Positions 21,091 through 62,161 of a DNA stretch of 64,000 bases are shown one piece after another. Below the pieces are notes generated by a model. The model worked only from the letters and a program-made list of their open reading frames with translations. It made no database searches and was not told the DNA's origin. The position numbers were made by a program, and so were the translations under genes. Source of the stretch: Pseudomonadota bacterium (GTDB lineage Bacteria > Pseudomonadota > Gammaproteobacteria > Burkholderiales > Rhodocyclaceae); contig JAFEFC010000016.1 in assembly GCA_018240785.1 (NCBI GenBank), forward strand, positions 62,001-126,000, written 5' to 3'. Each line of letters opens with the position of its first letter. The stretch's first letter is position 1.

Positions 21091-21999
21091 TCAGCCTTGG
21101 CTGCGGAGGGCGGCGATACGCGCCAGCAAGTCGGTGGCACACGGTCCGCTGCGCAGTGCGGCGCGGTGCACCTGAACCAGGTTTGCGCCGGCCCGCAGGC
21201 GCGCACGCGCCTCAGGGACAGAATCGATGCCGCCGACGCTGACGAGACCGATTGCGGGTCCCACCGCTTCGCGCAGTTCGGCCAGCCGACGGCAGACGCC
21301 CGCAGCCGCGCCTTCCGCCGACACGAGCAGCCCGTCCGCGCCGGCGGCCACGAAGCGGCACGCCAGCGCGGCCCGTCCAGCGGGCTCGATCCACGTCGCC
21401 GGCAGCTTCACCACCAGCGCCAGCCTTCGCGCACGGACGAGGCGTGCGCAACGGGCAGACAGCGCCGCGACGAGATCGGCGAATTCCGCCGCGGCGGGAC
21501 CTCCCCGCCCGGGATTGAGCACCACATAGTCCGCGCTGCGGTGCCATGCGCGGACTGCTCGCCAGTACGCCGTCCCCGCCTCGGCCCAGTCGAGCCCGGG
21601 CGGCTTCGCCAGGCTGAGGCCATGGAGCGCGGCCGGTCCGCTTCCTGCGGCGAGAAGCGGTCGACCGGCGTCCACATGCGTGCCCGCATGCGCCAGCGGA
21701 TGCAGCGGCAGCGGCTGGGCGGACGTCGTCCAGTGGCTGCCCGTCTCGACCGCGCCCAGGCCGAGCGCCGCGCCGCTGCGCAGCAGGTAGCCATGACGGT
21801 CGAGTCCGGCGGCAAGGATCAGCGGCGAGGCGAACACGAGCCGCATCACCCGCACCGGCACATCCCGACCTGCCGCAGCTCCATCGCCATGCCGGCGGCA
21901 GGCCCCAACTTCAGCCGCCTGCAGCTCATCGGCAGCCCTCGCAAGCCGCTGCACCGTCCACCGGCTGCGCAATGCCGTGCGGCTCAAGGGACTGATCAT
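21091..21999 (-). CDS. Dihydroorotate dehydrogenase-like FMN protein, divergent, in the pqq-type cluster
   Basis: A 302-residue TIM-barrel flavoprotein related to class 2 PyrD. The C-terminal half has family marks: VVKLPATW, GLVSVGGI and a phosphate-binding end GANLVQVHRAAL. The segment where real dihydroorotate dehydrogenases have NxSSPNTPG with the catalytic serine reads LNPGRGGPAAA, so the catalytic base and substrate asparagines are gone. It is the last gene of the unit beginning at pqqA and overlaps the SerC-like gene by four bases. It probably does a flavin-dependent redox step on a different substrate. Its N-terminal 50 residues are poorly conserved and the start could be internal. Confidence 0.7.
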   Translation of the reverse strand: MISPLSRTALRSRWTVQRLARAADELQAAEVGACRRHGDGAAAGRDVPVRVMRLVFASPLILAAGLDRHGYLLRSGAALGLGAVETGSHWTTSAQPLPLHPLAHAGTHVDAGRPLLAAGSGPAALHGLSLAKPPGLDWAEAGTAYWRAVRAWHRSADYVVLNPGRGGPAAAEFADLVAALSARCARLVRARRLALVVKLPATWIEPAGRAALACRFVAAGADGLLVSAEGAAAGVCRRLAELREAVGPAIGLVSVGGIDSVPEARARLRAGANLVQVHRAALRSGPCATDLLARIAALRSQG

Positions 22000-23228
22000 G
22001 CCCCCGCCCGCGCGACGCTCCGCGCCCGGGGCGCAGCCTGCCGGCGAGCGTGAGCGACGATGAAGTCGGCCAGCGCCTCCACCGCCGAATCCGCCATGCC
22101 GTGATAAAGGCTGACGCGCACGCCGCCGACGTCGGGATGGCCGCGCAGGTCACGCAGGCCCGCCGCCTCGGCCGCCGTGATGAAGGCCGCCGTGCTCGCG
22201 GCGTCGGCCAGCTGGAAGCAGGGATTGACCGCCGAACGCCAGGCGGGCGCGATGGGCTGTCGATACTCGCCGCCATGGGCATTGCCGTCATCGAGCGCTG
22301 CCTGCAGCAGCGTGTGGCGCCGGGCGAGGCGCGCCGCCATCGCCGGCACGCCGCCTTCGTCCTCGATCCAGTGCAGCATGCGGTGCGCGACGAAGACCGG
22401 CAGCACCGGCGGCGTGCACAGGCGCGAATCGGCCGCCGCCAGCGCCGCGTAGTCATGCACCCGCGGCGTGCAGCCCTGCGCGCGGCCCAGCAAGGCGCGC
22501 CGCACGATGACCAGCACGAGGCCGGGCGTGCCGGTGGTCTTCTGCAGGCCGGCGTAGACCAGGCCCAGGCGCGTCCAGTCGAGCGGCCGCGTCAGCAGGT
22601 CGGAGGTCATGTCCGCCGCCAGCGGCAACGCGACCTCGGGCCAGGCCGCGAAGCGCAGGCCGTCGGCCGTCTCGTTGCTGGTGAAGTGTGCGTAGGCGTG
22701 GCGTCCGGCCGGCACCTCGATGCGCAGGCGCGGGGAGCCGTCGGCGGCCGGCACCGGGCAAGCCTGCCCCGGCAGCGCATCCGCGTCGACCTCGCCTTGC
22801 TCCTCGCCGCGCGCGTCGGTGCCGACAACCGTCACCTCGCCGTAGCGCCGCGCTTCGGCGATGGCGCGCCGCGACCAGTGGCCGCTGTCGAGGTACAGGG
22901 CGCGCGGCGCGGCGGCTTCGCCGTCCTCGCCCAGCAGGTTCATCGGCAGCAGCGCGAACTGCGCGCTCGCGCCGCCGGCCATGAACAGCACCGCGAAATC
23001 GTCGGAAATGGCGAGCAGGCGACGCAGGCATGCCTCGGTCTCCGCCTGCAGGCTGCGGTAGGCGGCGGAGGTGAAAGGCAGGCTCAGGATGGTCCCCGGC
23101 CCGGGCCGGCAGGCCGCGGCCACCTCGCCTGCCACACGCGCCGGCAGCGGGCCTGCCGCGGCCGAGAAGCTGTAGCCCGGCAGCGCCCGCCAGGCAGCGA
23201 AGGCTTCAGGAAAACAGTGCGAGGCCAT
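21996..23228 (-). CDS. Phosphoserine aminotransferase-like PLP enzyme in the pqq-type cluster
   Basis: A 410-residue fold-type I PLP enzyme clearly related to SerC. It has SFSAAAGPLPARV (20-32), LFMAGGASAQFALLPMNL (81-98), SNETADG (184-190), the PLP lysine Lys230 in YAGLQKTTGTPG, and VGGVRVSLYHGM near the end. It departs from true SerC in several substrate-contact positions (QKTTGTPG for QKNIGPAG, VRVSLY for MRASIY), so it may be a paralog with a new substrate. It overlaps the preceding PuuD-like gene by 23 bases and the PyrD-like gene by four, a tight co-translated unit. True serine synthesis remains the alternative. Confidence 0.75.
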   Translation of the reverse strand: MASHCFPEAFAAWRALPGYSFSAAAGPLPARVAGEVAAACRPGPGTILSLPFTSAAYRSLQAETEACLRRLLAISDDFAVLFMAGGASAQFALLPMNLLGEDGEAAAPRALYLDSGHWSRRAIAEARRYGEVTVVGTDARGEEQGEVDADALPGQACPVPAADGSPRLRIEVPAGRHAYAHFTSNETADGLRFAAWPEVALPLAADMTSDLLTRPLDWTRLGLVYAGLQKTTGTPGLVLVIVRRALLGRAQGCTPRVHDYAALAAADSRLCTPPVLPVFVAHRMLHWIEDEGGVPAMAARLARRHTLLQAALDDGNAHGGEYRQPIAPAWRSAVNPCFQLADAASTAAFITAAEAAGLRDLRGHPDVGGVRVSLYHGMADSAVEALADFIVAHARRQAAPRARSVARAGA

Positions 23229-23709
23229 GCGCGCCGGCGCCCATGAAGAACAGCACCGGGATCGACAGCATGGTGTTTACCCGCGCCGCCAGGAAGGTGA
23301 TGCGCGAGCAGCGCAGGCGCTCCTCCAGCGGCGCCGGCACGAAGCCGAGCACCCGCTTCTGGTGCGGCCACAGCACGAACCACAGGTTGCAGACCATGAC
23401 CACCGCCAGCCAGATACCGACGCCGAGCGGCGCCAGGCTGCCCTGCAGGGTCAGCGCGCTGCCCAACCAGCCGCGCGCCCACAGGATCGCCAGGCCGCTG
23501 CCGAGCACGACCAGCGAGGCGTAGCGGAAAGTGCCGTGCTCGCGCTGCATCAGGGCGCGCTGCCGCGGGCTGTCGGGGTCGGACAGGTCGTCCGCGGTCA
23601 GCGCCACATAGCGCGAGCGGGTGACGGCGGTGGCGTAATTGTGGCCCACCCAGACCAGCGCGCCGAGGAAGTGCAGCCAGCGCGCCGCCACTTCGAGCAG
23701 GACATCCAT
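23206..23709 (-). CDS. PuuD-like membrane protein (urate hydroxylase N-terminal domain family)
   Basis: A 167-residue integral membrane protein with four hydrophobic helices (about 5-25, 62-80, 92-112 and 143-162). The segments RWLHFLGALVWVGHNY, NLWFVLWPHQKRVLG and ARVNTMLSIPVLFFMGAG match the membrane domain of PuuD-type urate hydroxylases and related stand-alone proteins. The periplasmic cytochrome c domain of full PuuD is missing. The conserved His in helix 1 could bind heme, but this is inference. It sits between the 34-codon peptide and the SerC-like gene in the pqqA-led unit, so it may be a membrane redox partner. Confidence 0.72.
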   Translation of the reverse strand: MDVLLEVAARWLHFLGALVWVGHNYATAVTRSRYVALTADDLSDPDSPRQRALMQREHGTFRYASLVVLGSGLAILWARGWLGSALTLQGSLAPLGVGIWLAVVMVCNLWFVLWPHQKRVLGFVPAPLEERLRCSRITFLAARVNTMLSIPVLFFMGAGAHGLALFS

Positions 23710-23720
23710 GGCGGCGCTCC

Positions 23721-23825
23721 TCAGGACAGCAGGCGCAGCATCAGCGCCAGCACCGCGGTCAGCGCCAGGCCGAGGGCGACGGTGAAGGCCGAGGAGTCGA
23801 ACAGGCGCAGCAGGGCGTCAGACAT
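23721..23825 (-). CDS. 34-residue single-helix membrane peptide in the pqq-type cluster
   Basis: A short ORF whose ATG (23825-23823) starts just ahead of the pqqE stop codon, inside the last codons of pqqE, so translation is coupled. It ends 11 bases before the PuuD-like start. The peptide begins MSDALLRLFDSSAFTV and is almost wholly hydrophobic from residue 13 on (LGLALTAVLALMLRLLS), a single membrane helix. It fills the only gap between the cluster genes. It is probably a small subunit for the PuuD-like protein; no family was recognised. Confidence 0.55.
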   Translation of the reverse strand: MSDALLRLFDSSAFTVALGLALTAVLALMLRLLS

Positions 23826-25029
23826 GATCGACCTCCACGCGCGCGGCGCCGCTGCCGCAACCCGTCCCGGCGCCGCCGCCACCCTGGCCGCCCTGGGCCA
23901 GCCGGCGCGAGTTGCCGTCGTTGCGCATCACCAGCGGCTGCACCTTGCGCCCGGGAGCGTGTGCCCGCGCGATCGCCTCGCCGATCAGGTGGTGGTGCGG
24001 CGAGCGCGAGCAGGCGGGATCGGTGTTCGCCGCGTCGCCGGTCATCAGGAAGGCCTGGCAGCGGCAGCCGCCGAAGTCCTTCTCCTTCTCGTCGCAACTG
24101 CGGCAGGTCGGGCTCATCCACGCATCGCCGCGAAACTTCTCGAAAGTGGGCGATTCGTTCCACAGCCAGGCCAGGCTGTTGTCGCGCACGGTGGGGAATT
24201 CCAGCCCCTGGATGATGCGCGCCTCCTGGCAGGGCATGGCAGCGCCGTCGGGCGCGATGGTCAGGTGGATCGACCCCCAGCCGTTCATGCACGCCTTGGG
24301 CCGGCCTTCGTAGTAGTCGGGAATGACGAAGTAGATCGTCATGCGATCGCCCAGGCGCTCGCGTGCGGCCTGCACCTCGCGCTCGGCGGCGGCGATCTGC
24401 TCGCGCGTCGGCAGCAGCTCGTCGCGATTGACCATCGCCCAGTTGTAGTACTGGATGTTGGCGAACTCGAGATAATCCACGCCGATCTGCTCGGCCAGCG
24501 CCAGGATGTCGGCGACCTGGCCGATGTTGTGGCGGAACACCGGCACGTTGAGCACCATCGGGAAGCCCTGGGCCTTGATCTGATGCGCGACCTTCAGCTT
24601 GAGGTCGAAGGCGCGCGCGCCGACCAGGGTGTCGGTGAGTTCGCGATCGCTCGACTGCAGCGAAAGCTGGATCTGGTTCAGCCCGGCGGCCTTCAGTGCG
24701 GCGAGACGCTCTTCGGTGAGCCCCACGCCCGAAGTGATCAGGTTGGTGTAGTAGCCCAGCGCGCTGGCGTCGGCGACGAGCTCTTCCAGGTCGTCGCGCA
24801 GCAAGGGTTCGCCGCCGGTGAAGCCGAGCTGCAGCGCGCCCAGCTCGCGGCCTTCGCGCATCACGCGCTTCCATTCCGCGGTGGAGAGCTCAGCCTCGCC
24901 GTCACGCGCGTAATCGACCGGGTTGCTGCACCACGGGCACTTCAGCGGGCAGCGGTAGGTCAGCTCGAGCACCAGCCACAGCGGCTTGCCCTGCCCGTCA
25001 AGCCTGACGACGGATCCATCCTTTGGCAC
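23818..25029 (-). CDS. pqqE: PqqA peptide cyclase (radical SAM, SPASM)
   Basis: A 403-residue PqqE, which joins Glu and Tyr of the PqqA peptide by a C-C bond. The radical SAM motif is Cys27, Cys31, Cys34. The auxiliary cluster ligands are all present: Cys247, Cys267, Cys309, Cys312, Cys322, Cys324 and Cys340, spaced as in characterised PqqE, and FTGGEP (70-75) binds SAM. The start is a GTG (25029) 32 bases inside the end of pqqD; the open frame further upstream is the pqqD region out of frame. The C-terminus carries a Gly-rich tail of about 35 residues that looks longer than usual. Confidence 0.95.
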   Translation of the reverse strand: MPKDGSVVRLDGQGKPLWLVLELTYRCPLKCPWCSNPVDYARDGEAELSTAEWKRVMREGRELGALQLGFTGGEPLLRDDLEELVADASALGYYTNLITSGVGLTEERLAALKAAGLNQIQLSLQSSDRELTDTLVGARAFDLKLKVAHQIKAQGFPMVLNVPVFRHNIGQVADILALAEQIGVDYLEFANIQYYNWAMVNRDELLPTREQIAAAEREVQAARERLGDRMTIYFVIPDYYEGRPKACMNGWGSIHLTIAPDGAAMPCQEARIIQGLEFPTVRDNSLAWLWNESPTFEKFRGDAWMSPTCRSCDEKEKDFGGCRCQAFLMTGDAANTDPACSRSPHHHLIGEAIARAHAPGRKVQPLVMRNDGNSRRLAQGGQGGGGAGTGCGSGAARVEVDHV

Positions 25030-25300
25030 GGAACACCTCCAGGAATTTATAGACGCCTTCCGTGACGCGTTCGTCGTCGCCGGGATAGCGCTGCTGCAGT
25101 TCGCCGACCAGGTCGGCGACGGTGCGGTGACCGTCGCAGCGCGCGATGATGTCGCCGGCGGTCTGGTTGAGCTTGACGATGCCTTCCGGGTAGAGCAGGA
25201 CATGCGCGTCCTGCGTCGGCTCCCAGCGGAACAGGTACATCGGGTTGAGCACGTAGCGATCGCCGGCGGCGGGCGGGCTCGGGGCGGTGATGTCGGTCAT
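24998..25300 (-). CDS. pqqD: PQQ biosynthesis peptide chaperone PqqD
   Basis: A 100-residue PqqD, the small winged-helix protein that binds the PqqA precursor and presents it to PqqE. Family marks are YLFRWEPTQDAHVLLYPEG, then IVKLNQTAGDIIARCDG and VADLVGELQQRYPG. It stands alone rather than fused to PqqC, as it is in some methylotrophs. It overlaps pqqE by 32 bases. pqqB and pqqC, which normally lie between pqqA and pqqD, are missing; only 96 bases separate this gene from pqqA. Confidence 0.94.
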   Translation of the reverse strand: MTDITAPSPPAAGDRYVLNPMYLFRWEPTQDAHVLLYPEGIVKLNQTAGDIIARCDGHRTVADLVGELQQRYPGDDERVTEGVYKFLEVFRAKGWIRRQA

Positions 25301-25364
25301 GCGGGCATCCGTTCCGTTTGCACGGGGAGGTGCCGAGGCGGGCGGTGCGGCGCGCACCGCGGAC

Positions 25365-25389
25365 AGGCCCGGTGCGGTGCGCCGGGCCT
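25365..25389 (-). terminator. Stem-loop directly after pqqA
   Basis: Perfect eight-base arms AGGCCCGG and CCGGGCCT around a nine-base loop, starting eight bases after the pqqA stop and lacking a T-run. This suits a partial terminator or RNA stabiliser that gives pqqA more expression than the downstream genes, as known in other pqq operons. Confidence 0.5.
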
Positions 25390-25396
25390 GCGCGCC

Positions 25397-25471
25397 TCAA
25401 CGTACGTACACGTAGGCGGTCACCTCGAAGCCGAGGCGGATGTCGCAATAGGCGGGGTCGATCCACTGCAT
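25397..25471 (-). CDS. pqqA: PQQ precursor peptide PqqA
   Basis: A 24-codon ORF encoding MQWIDPAYCDIRLGFEVTAY plus VYVR. It has the defining RLGFEVTAY core with Glu16 and Tyr20, the two residues PqqE cross-links. An extra Tyr22, Tyr8 and Cys9 are present; many PqqA peptides lack these. The ribosome site AGGAGA (CAGGAGACTCACC before the ATG) is good. It is the first gene of the unit and too short for most gene callers. Confidence 0.95.
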   Translation of the reverse strand: MQWIDPAYCDIRLGFEVTAYVYVR

Positions 25472-25597: not shown

Positions 25598-25654
25598 GAG
25601 CTGGCGAAAATCATGATTCTCGCCAGCTCGAGCGCGCCCGTTGACGTGAGTCAA
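25598..25654 (-). promoter_or_regulatory. FNR/DNR-type site and promoter for the pqqA unit
   Basis: TTGAC-GTGA-GTCAA (25641-25654) is a perfect palindrome matching the FNR/ANR/DNR box TTGAY-N4-RTCAA. On the minus strand a CATGAT/ATGATT -10-like element lies near 25611-25617, about 31 bases from the box centre, exactly the spacing of a class II (-41.5) FNR promoter. The start would be near 25606, 135 bases before pqqA. The -10 lies in the loop of a ten-base-pair inverted repeat (25598-25607 with 25620-25629). Confidence 0.65.
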
Positions 25655-29017: not shown

Positions 29018-29102
<85 letters not shown>

Positions 29103-29113
29103 GTTTCACAGGA

Positions 29114-29139
29114 AAGCCGCTCTTCGGAGCGGCTTTTTT
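29114..29139 (+). terminator. Intrinsic terminator of tRNA-Leu copy 1
   Basis: Arms AAGCCGCTC and GAGCGGCTT around a TTCG tetraloop, followed by a run of Ts up to 29139. A textbook rho-independent terminator. Confidence 0.93.
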
Positions 29140-29261
29140 GTTTCCATTGCCCGATGGAGCTCGATCCGGATTCGTCCGCCCACGCGGCGGCGCGGTGTCG
29201 CAAATCTGCGCTGAAAAACCCCTTTCCTCCCGCAAGCGCCTTTGCTATTATGCGCGTCCCT

Positions 29262-29346
<85 letters not shown>

Positions 29347-61733: not shown

Positions 61734-62161
61734 TGAGCGACCTCTCCCCCTGGATTGCGATTCCGGTGGCGCTGCTGATGTGCATCGGCAGCGTGCTGGC
61801 GCTGATCGGCGCGCTGGGCCTGCTGCGGCTGAAGAACTTCTATTCGCGCGTCCATGCGCCCACGCTGGGCACCACGCTGGGACTGGGCTGCATCCTGCTC
61901 GCGTCGCTGGTTTCGTCTTCGGCGCTGGCAAGCAAGCTGGTGCTGCACGAGTTGCTCATCGCCGTGTTCATCGTCGTCACTGCGCCGGTGACCACGATGA
62001 TGCTGTTGCGCGCGGCGCTGGCCGAGGACAGGCGCAAGGACCATCGGCCCGCCCAACCGGCAGGGCCGTCGCCGGCCGATGCGGAGCTTGAGGAAGACGT
62101 CCAGCCGGGTGACGACACCCCGGCCTCCAGCGATCAGGCAAGGCCGGGCGGTGATGCATGA
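61733..62161 (+). CDS. mrpG: Mrp antiporter subunit G
   Basis: A 142-residue three-helix subunit with the MnhG/PhaG pattern GALGLLRLKNFYSRVHAPTL. A long polar Pro/Asp/Glu-rich tail (about 105-142) is not part of the family core. The ATG at 61733 overlaps the mrpF stop (TGATG); a GTG one codon earlier is equally placed. Last gene of the six-gene operon. Confidence 0.93.
   Translation: MSDLSPWIAIPVALLMCIGSVLALIGALGLLRLKNFYSRVHAPTLGTTLGLGCILLASLVSSSALASKLVLHELLIAVFIVVTAPVTTMMLLRAALAEDRRKDHRPAQPAGPSPADAELEEDVQPGDDTPASSDQARPGGDA

Follow-up and report, generated by a model that had tools for sequence, protein, structure and literature searches.

In the classical pathway to pyrroloquinoline quinone (PQQ), oxygen is used by two enzymes, as summarized in a 2025 paper (PMC12423496): PqqB, which is probably a hydroxylase, and PqqC, an O2-using oxidase that removes eight electrons. 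The same paper states that Klebsiella pneumoniae and Pseudomonas aeruginosa, which have the canonical genes only, made no PQQ in anaerobic growth. It also describes a second cluster, pqqAED-puuD-serC-pyrD, which lies beside pqqABCDE in Hyphomicrobium denitrificans (Hden_0548-0553) and other denitrifiers, names Azoarcus sp. DN11, Halomonas, Stutzerimonas and Methylophaga as further hosts, and speculates that this cluster finishes PQQ without oxygen. Our literature search, which covered the titles and abstract starts of open-licence papers, returned no other paper proposing an O2-free PQQ cluster. Here we analyze a cluster of this kind in a bacterium of the Rhodocyclaceae (assembly GCA_018240785.1, contig JAFEFC010000016.1). 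It lies in a stretch of 64,000 nucleotides (positions 62,001 to 126,000 of the contig, forward strand), hereafter the window, to which all coordinates below refer. The system is real and conserved, its central idea is already in print as speculation, and the window locus is a new member of it. We read the cluster as probably an alternative operon that finishes PQQ during O2-free growth by nitrate respiration. What we infer in this reading is the oxygen independence and the PQQ product; what we observe is the gene content, its conservation, a regulatory box, precursor genes shared in single copy, and changes in active sites.

As the first-pass annotation of this DNA had proposed, seven genes run on the minus strand from 25471 to 21091, in the order pqqA, pqqD, pqqE, a 34-codon membrane peptide, and genes for a PuuD-like, a SerC-like and a PyrD-like protein. 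Neighboring genes overlap (pqqD/pqqE by 32 nt, pqqE/peptide by 8 nt, puuD/serC by 23 nt, and serC/pyrD by 4 nt) or lie 11 nt apart (peptide and puuD), except for pqqA and pqqD, which are separated by 96 nt. The gene set is the same as that found beside the classical pqqABCDE in H. denitrificans, with the order A-D-E in the window. The precursor peptide PqqA (25397..25471; MQWIDPAYCDIRLGFEVTAYVYVR, 24 aa) matched PF08042 with 39.6 bits and TIGR02107 with 34.3 bits, and it has the E-x3-Y arrangement of the classical PQQ precursor, with both of the residues noted earlier, E16 and Y20, in place. The peptide chaperone PqqD (24998..25300) matched TIGR03859 with 98 bits (cut-off 46), while PqqE (23818..25029, GTG start), the radical S-adenosylmethionine (SAM)/SPASM enzyme of Glu-Tyr cross-linking, matched TIGR02109 with 502 bits (cut-off 381), so that all three proteins scored above the curated cut-offs. 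The SPASM cysteines of the window PqqE, whose cluster cysteines had all been noted earlier, and its CRSCDxxEKD motif aligned with those of the solved PqqE structure 6c8v.

With the classical pqqABCDE(F) set, then, the cluster shares the E16/Y20 pair of PqqA and the PqqD and PqqE equivalogs, but its PqqE is of a separate sequence type, and pqqB, pqqC and pqqF are all missing from it (the pqqF search did not extend beyond the cluster). The absence of pqqB and pqqC, as first described, holds for the cluster and not for the organism. The host genome (4.71 Mb, 99.99% complete, related to Thauera) has a second, classical pqqA-B-C-D-E set on another contig (C33, L003). It also encodes nosZ, and the PQQ alcohol dehydrogenase family is matched three times in it. 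A complete pqqBCF set elsewhere had been named at the outset as evidence against an unusual route; part of this was found, in that the genome contains a classical pqqABCDE.

For its distribution, we compared an alignment of the PuuD-like protein (A2) with the genome_contigs collection, obtaining 205 relatives, of which the best 80 were kept for all counts of loci. With the window PuuD-like protein as a query, plasmids gave two further records, from Acidibrevibacterium fodinaquatile and Methylovirgula sp. HY1. In the resulting 82 loci, which were picked by the PuuD-like gene alone, the serC-like gene was found in 82, pqqE in 80 and the pyrD-like gene in 79. A chance neighborhood was ruled out, since the five misses all occurred at contig ends; the co-occurrence with pqqE that had been proposed as a check was thus borne out. 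Adding the window and six loci from its family gave 89 loci, or 87 after two contigs that agreed with others in length and position were dropped as duplicates (L022 = L040, L025 = L068), and among these the serC-like gene was present in 87, pqqE in 85 and the pyrD-like gene in 84. The arrangement varied: pqqA, pqqD and pqqE came first in 48 loci, pqqE led with pqqA downstream in 20, pqqA was on the opposite strand in 3, and in 16 the stretch retrieved showed no pqqA. Within the fetched stretch, pqqB and/or pqqC occurred in 17 of the 87 loci, and in Dechloromonas agitata the locus is merged (pqqE-peptide-puuD-serC-pyrD-pqqB-pqqC-pqqA-pqqD). Hosts with names of nitrate or perchlorate reducers among the best 80 of 205 include Dechloromonas, Denitromonas and Denitrificimonas.

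Searches with the PyrD-like protein were less productive. In a draw of 199 genomes from the window's family it matched 7, of which the six other than the host all had the entire cluster; in a draw of 398 genomes from the phylum it matched 8, with only the host genome above 41 bits; and it had no match among plasmids. We attribute the weak yield from the phylum and the plasmids to the PyrD-like protein being too fast-evolving.

Support for PQQ as the product of the cluster came from its relationship with pqqC. Searching 50 cluster-bearing genomes (the host and those of 49 of the 80 loci; threshold for pqqE, E up to 1e-60), we found pqqC in 47. A single pqqE was present in 20 genomes and two or three in 29; the one genome without any has its cluster at the end of a contig. 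In all 20 cases the coordinates of the single pqqE are those of the cluster's own copy; pqqC was present in 18 of these genomes, and 19 had one pqqA, the remaining one having two, although many of these genomes are drafts or metagenome-assembled genomes (MAGs). In a tree of 85 cluster and 21 classical PqqE sequences, one branch split the two sets with a support of 99/96. The single-copy sequences grouped with the cluster type, as did the window PqqE, whose nearest neighbor was that of Thauera sp. 2A1 (98% identical). Cluster PqqA also has a C-terminus of its own, RLGFEVTAYVYVR with an extra Tyr at position 22, in 59 of the 68 loci listed, the corresponding sequence in the host's classical PqqA being FGFEITMYIATR. 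In the single-pqqE genomes that have pqqC, PqqC can work, as far as seen, solely on the product of a cluster-type PqqE, which argues that the module also makes PQQ. One precursor can, on this evidence, serve both finishing routes.

Two further observations concern the placement of these genes. In a Thauera MAG (G609; L112, L111), the 14 kb retrieved around pqqB-pqqC contain no pqqA, pqqD or pqqE, and our search found pqqE and pqqA nowhere but in the cluster, which lies on the same contig. Two Pseudogulbenkiania genomes (L129, L133) contain a very divergent pqqB-C-E-like set (PqqE branch length 2.35), at which no pqqA or pqqD was recognized by our search.

Some genomes have the cluster and no pqqC. 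In the family draw of 199 genomes, the PuuD-like gene, counted at 277 bits or more, was present in 19, pqqC in 55, the PQQ alcohol dehydrogenase family (TIGR03075, at 1e-60) in 82 and the NosZ propeller in 113; the neighborhood was read in 12 of the 19. The dehydrogenase family was matched in all 19 genomes with the PuuD-like gene (weakly, at 1e-65, in G592), and in G502, G517, G449 and G538 the coordinates place a dehydrogenase gene no more than about 10 kb from the cluster. Four of the 19 were without pqqC, namely G499, G502 and G517 (99-100% completeness) and G473 (85%), and all four have both a PQQ alcohol dehydrogenase and nosZ. Their cluster is complete in G517, extends from pqqE to pyrD in G502 and G473, and in G499 (L069, Thauera aminoaromatica S2) runs from pqqE to serC, where the contig ends.

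Upstream of the window cluster, 183 bp 5' of pqqA, lies the palindrome TTGACTCACGTCAA (25641..25654, minus strand), a strict instance of TTGAY-N4-RTCAA, which we take to be the FNR/DNR-type consensus. When this strict pattern was sought within 350 bp 5' of pqqA, it was found in 28 of the 48 pqqA-first loci; dinucleotide shuffles gave a mean of 0.045 and a maximum of 2 of 48, and the density of the box over all loci was 0.011 per 350 bp. Classical pqqA genes had no such box (0 of the 19 recognized in a set of 21 loci, 20 fetched plus the host's own). Where the box occurs, its position follows the clade: Thauera, Aromatoleum and Methyloversatilis loci have it at -182 to -184, three Denitromonas-like loci at -172, Methylotenera at -238 or -241, and three loci of Marinobacter and Halomonas at -217 to -219. 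In Methylovirgula HY1, a gene with Crp-type domains adjoins pqqA.

The proteins encoded downstream of pqqE depart from their namesakes, and ordinary serC, pyrD and puuD genes were ruled out, the first two by comparison of active sites and the third by size and helix count. The SerC-like protein (21996..23228, minus strand, as are all genes of the cluster) matched NF003764 with 276.6 bits (cut-off 253) and TIGR01364 with 248 bits, below the cut-off of 443.6, and is about 36% identical to the ordinary SerC that the host keeps besides it. All tested positions contacting pyridoxal phosphate (PLP) are retained: K198, presumably the PLP lysine, in 87 of 87 sequences, and also D174, T153, W102, Q197 and R335, which we take to be further PLP contacts. 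In the SHR motif, presumably phosphate-binding, all 81 ungapped sequences have F in place of H41 and none of the 81 keeps R42, most proteins having PF[T/S] instead; R329 is kept in 9 of 86. R77 was dropped as a marker, being missing in the host's own SerC too. By these comparisons, the SerC-like protein has kept its PLP site and lost its phosphate clamp.

The PyrD-like protein (21091..21999) scored 62 bits against TIGR01036 (cut-off 200). Compared with PyrD, the class-2 dihydroorotate dehydrogenase (DHODH), it keeps the flavin mononucleotide (FMN) barrel, an N-terminal helix in its model, the FMN site (K217, GG296-297) and, in 78 of 83 sequences, N172. In contrast, Ser175, presumably the catalytic residue, is present in 4 of 83, and of the residues that we take to bind orotate, Asn177 is present in 2 of 78, Asn246 in 0 of 82, and Asn111 in none, all 83 sequences having a gap where its loop should be. 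In the window protein all four of these residues are missing. Most of the orotate site is thus lost.

The PuuD-like protein (23206..23709, 167 aa) shares with the urate oxidase PuuD a match to the Urate_ox_N profile (PF06181, 34.3 bits, cut-off 26.9). However, PuuD consists of an eight-helix DUF989 domain plus a cytochrome c domain, whereas the short protein has four of the eight helices, no CXXCH, no cytochrome c domain and a micropeptide as its neighbor. The AlphaFold2 model (mean predicted local distance difference test score, 91.6) showed four long helices, and H13, H23, H58 and H161 were invariant in 51 aligned sequences. No match was returned for the model by Foldseek at E up to 0.001, nor for the A2 profile among solved structures. 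Short four-helix DUF989 proteins are described in other gene contexts as well (PMC4562309). In the window's own family, eight further genomes (L140-L147) encode another short DUF989-like membrane protein in other neighborhoods. These weak matches (105-147 bits) were considered as a third variant of the cluster and rejected, because the stretches around them (5.4-10.5 kb) had no profile match to the cluster serC, pyrD or pqqE; they were excluded before the 19 genomes were counted.

The micropeptide (23721..23825), 34 aa long with a single membrane helix, is a conserved family. Both flanking genes are present in 85 distinct loci, and in 83 of these an open reading frame of this kind ends shortly 5' of puuD (78 recognized by the pattern D-[ST]-x3-T-x3-G-x2-L-T, mostly with P and Y or H before it, and five by eye); it is missing in L027 and L073. 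Per-site differences at the three codon positions were 0.41, 0.29 and 0.53 (3003 pairs), and the ratio of nonsynonymous to synonymous differences (pN/pS) was 0.55 in frame versus 1.12 and 1.52 in the other frames (357 pairs). Three sequences of the family had no match in Pfam or NCBIfam, and the A. fodinaquatile plasmid's gene table, known to be incomplete, does not list the peptide. Other membrane oxidoreductases have small subunits at their side, and by analogy the micropeptide probably sits next to the PuuD-like protein.

A possible course of the reaction can be outlined from these features. Radical SAM chemistry is independent of oxygen, and PqqD and PqqE would join the Glu and Tyr of PqqA just as they do in classical synthesis, after which the downstream module would take the place of the O2-using PqqB and PqqC. 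The PuuD-like protein and the micropeptide may oxidize and hydroxylate the tyrosine ring with oxygen from water, replacing PqqB, and pass the electrons to the respiratory chain. The SerC-like protein might bind the free end of the amino acid in a PLP aldimine and promote ring closure, and the PyrD-like flavoprotein would take further electrons, probably to quinone like a class-2 DHODH; together the two would stand in for PqqC. The electrons would finally leave via quinone or cytochrome to nitrate respiration. We infer every chemical step here, and this division of labor, with hydroxylation by water assigned to the PuuD-like protein and micropeptide, and dehydrogenation and ring closure to the PyrD-like and SerC-like proteins, is accordingly proposed as tentative. 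Equally tentative is the broader picture of a module coupled to the respiratory chain, in which a four-helix heme protein and a micropeptide of about 30-37 residues might insert oxygen from water, a re-purposed PLP transaminase and class-2 DHODH might close and aromatize the rings, and the single-pqqE genomes might represent a two-module switch on one precursor.

Several findings weigh against an oxygen-free route. The host genome has a classical pqqABCDE and 47 of 50 cluster genomes have pqqC, so that gene content alone does not demand oxygen independence. Of the 48 pqqA-first loci, 20 are without the FNR-type box, and it was found 5' of pqqE in 0 of the 35 tested loci where pqqE leads or pqqA is unseen; the box is therefore a trait of the self-contained operon and not of the merged loci. 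Genomes of the family draw that have the PuuD-like gene had nosZ no more often (16 of 19) than those with pqqC alone (31 of 40; p = 0.73), so a link to denitrification via nosZ is unsupported beyond that of pqqC alone. Of the 140 family genomes lacking both pqqC and the PuuD-like gene, 23 still matched the dehydrogenase family, and a dehydrogenase gene is thus no proof of PQQ synthesis. As for the four genomes without pqqC, G499 and G473 are in about 320 and 520 contigs and G502 is apparently a MAG, and their status rests on the pqqC search, pqqB not having been searched there. A microaerobic, high-affinity route would fit as well.

In this last alternative, which we consider rather unlikely, the module would finish PQQ at low oxygen, with the PuuD-like protein acting as a high-affinity microaerobic oxidase. 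FNR-type control extends to low oxygen, and the four invariant histidines could bind an O2-reactive heme; on the other hand, class-2 DHODH chemistry is quinone-linked, and several hosts among the best 80 of 205 are named as nitrate or perchlorate reducers. PuuD itself was concluded to hand its electrons to cytochrome c (PMC4562309), which also speaks against an oxidase. A reading in which the cross-linked peptide becomes not PQQ but some other redox cofactor, as in one of the two ideas originally put forward, or a signal, seems unlikely to us. It would agree with cluster PqqA (by its RLGFEVTAYVYVR end and Tyr22) and cluster PqqE (by the 99/96 branch) being types of their own, and none of the downstream enzymes has a proven PQQ function; however, the cluster-type PqqE is the sole one found that could supply PqqC in 18 of the 20 single-pqqE genomes, and the PQQ alcohol dehydrogenase family is matched in every one of the 19 family genomes that have the PuuD-like gene. 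The other original idea, that PQQ is finished without O2, is the better supported, because the extra genes travel with pqqE, an FNR-type box often precedes the operon, some genomes have a single pqqE (and nearly always a single pqqA) beside pqqC, and four family genomes with the PuuD-like gene and without pqqC have the dehydrogenase. That the downstream genes are accessory (in PQQ delivery, storage or repair, or in the metabolism of serine, pyrimidines or purines), with pqqADE supplying extra gene dosage to the classical pathway, is very unlikely, since, despite the classical pqqBC of the host, the pqqC of 47 of 50 cluster genomes and the public annotation of the two plasmid copies (serC and urate hydroxylase PuuD in both, dihydroorotate oxidase in one), the SerC-like protein is without the phosphate clamp while the host keeps an ordinary SerC, the PyrD-like protein is without most of the orotate site, the PuuD-like protein has four of eight urate-domain helices and no cytochrome domain, and four family genomes are without pqqC.

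The surroundings of the cluster were also inspected. On its 3' side, on the minus strand between 15588 and 20951, the window encodes a NIT/ANTAR protein, a nitrate-type ATP-binding cassette ATPase and an 863-aa protein with NirB nitrite reductase domains, and the cluster therefore adjoins nitrate assimilation genes. A tandem pair of tRNA-Leu(CAG) genes lies at 29018-29346. In other hosts, the cluster is plasmid-borne in L026 and L027, one of the two being a 45.8 kb Acidibrevibacterium plasmid typed as mobilizable, and it may spread horizontally via such plasmids. In Methylovirgula HY1 (L027:1-4547), it is found near genes annotated as a modified-peptide system CbpA/CbpB and another radical SAM protein. 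Identical PqqE sequences occur in the tree for Dechloromonas agitata is5 and Acidovorax sp. 210-6 (L054/L056), hosts of different families, which may reflect a recent transfer or a mislabeled assembly.

What is added here to the published speculation, and strengthens it, are the synteny counts, the FNR-type boxes, the single-pqqE and pqqC-less genomes, the active-site changes and the conserved micropeptide; section 2.9 of the 2025 paper (PMC12423496) contains no mention of the micropeptide, the boxes, either kind of genome or the active-site changes. Denitrifying methylotrophs and alcohol oxidizers use PQQ dehydrogenases, yet the classical pathway to the cofactor needs oxygen. An O2-free route, if true, would account for the working of quinoprotein dehydrogenases in denitrifying cells, and it would add to cofactor chemistry a water-based ring hydroxylation and two re-purposed enzymes. 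The genomes that have the cluster and no pqqC, and those in which one pqqE is shared, make the speculation directly testable.

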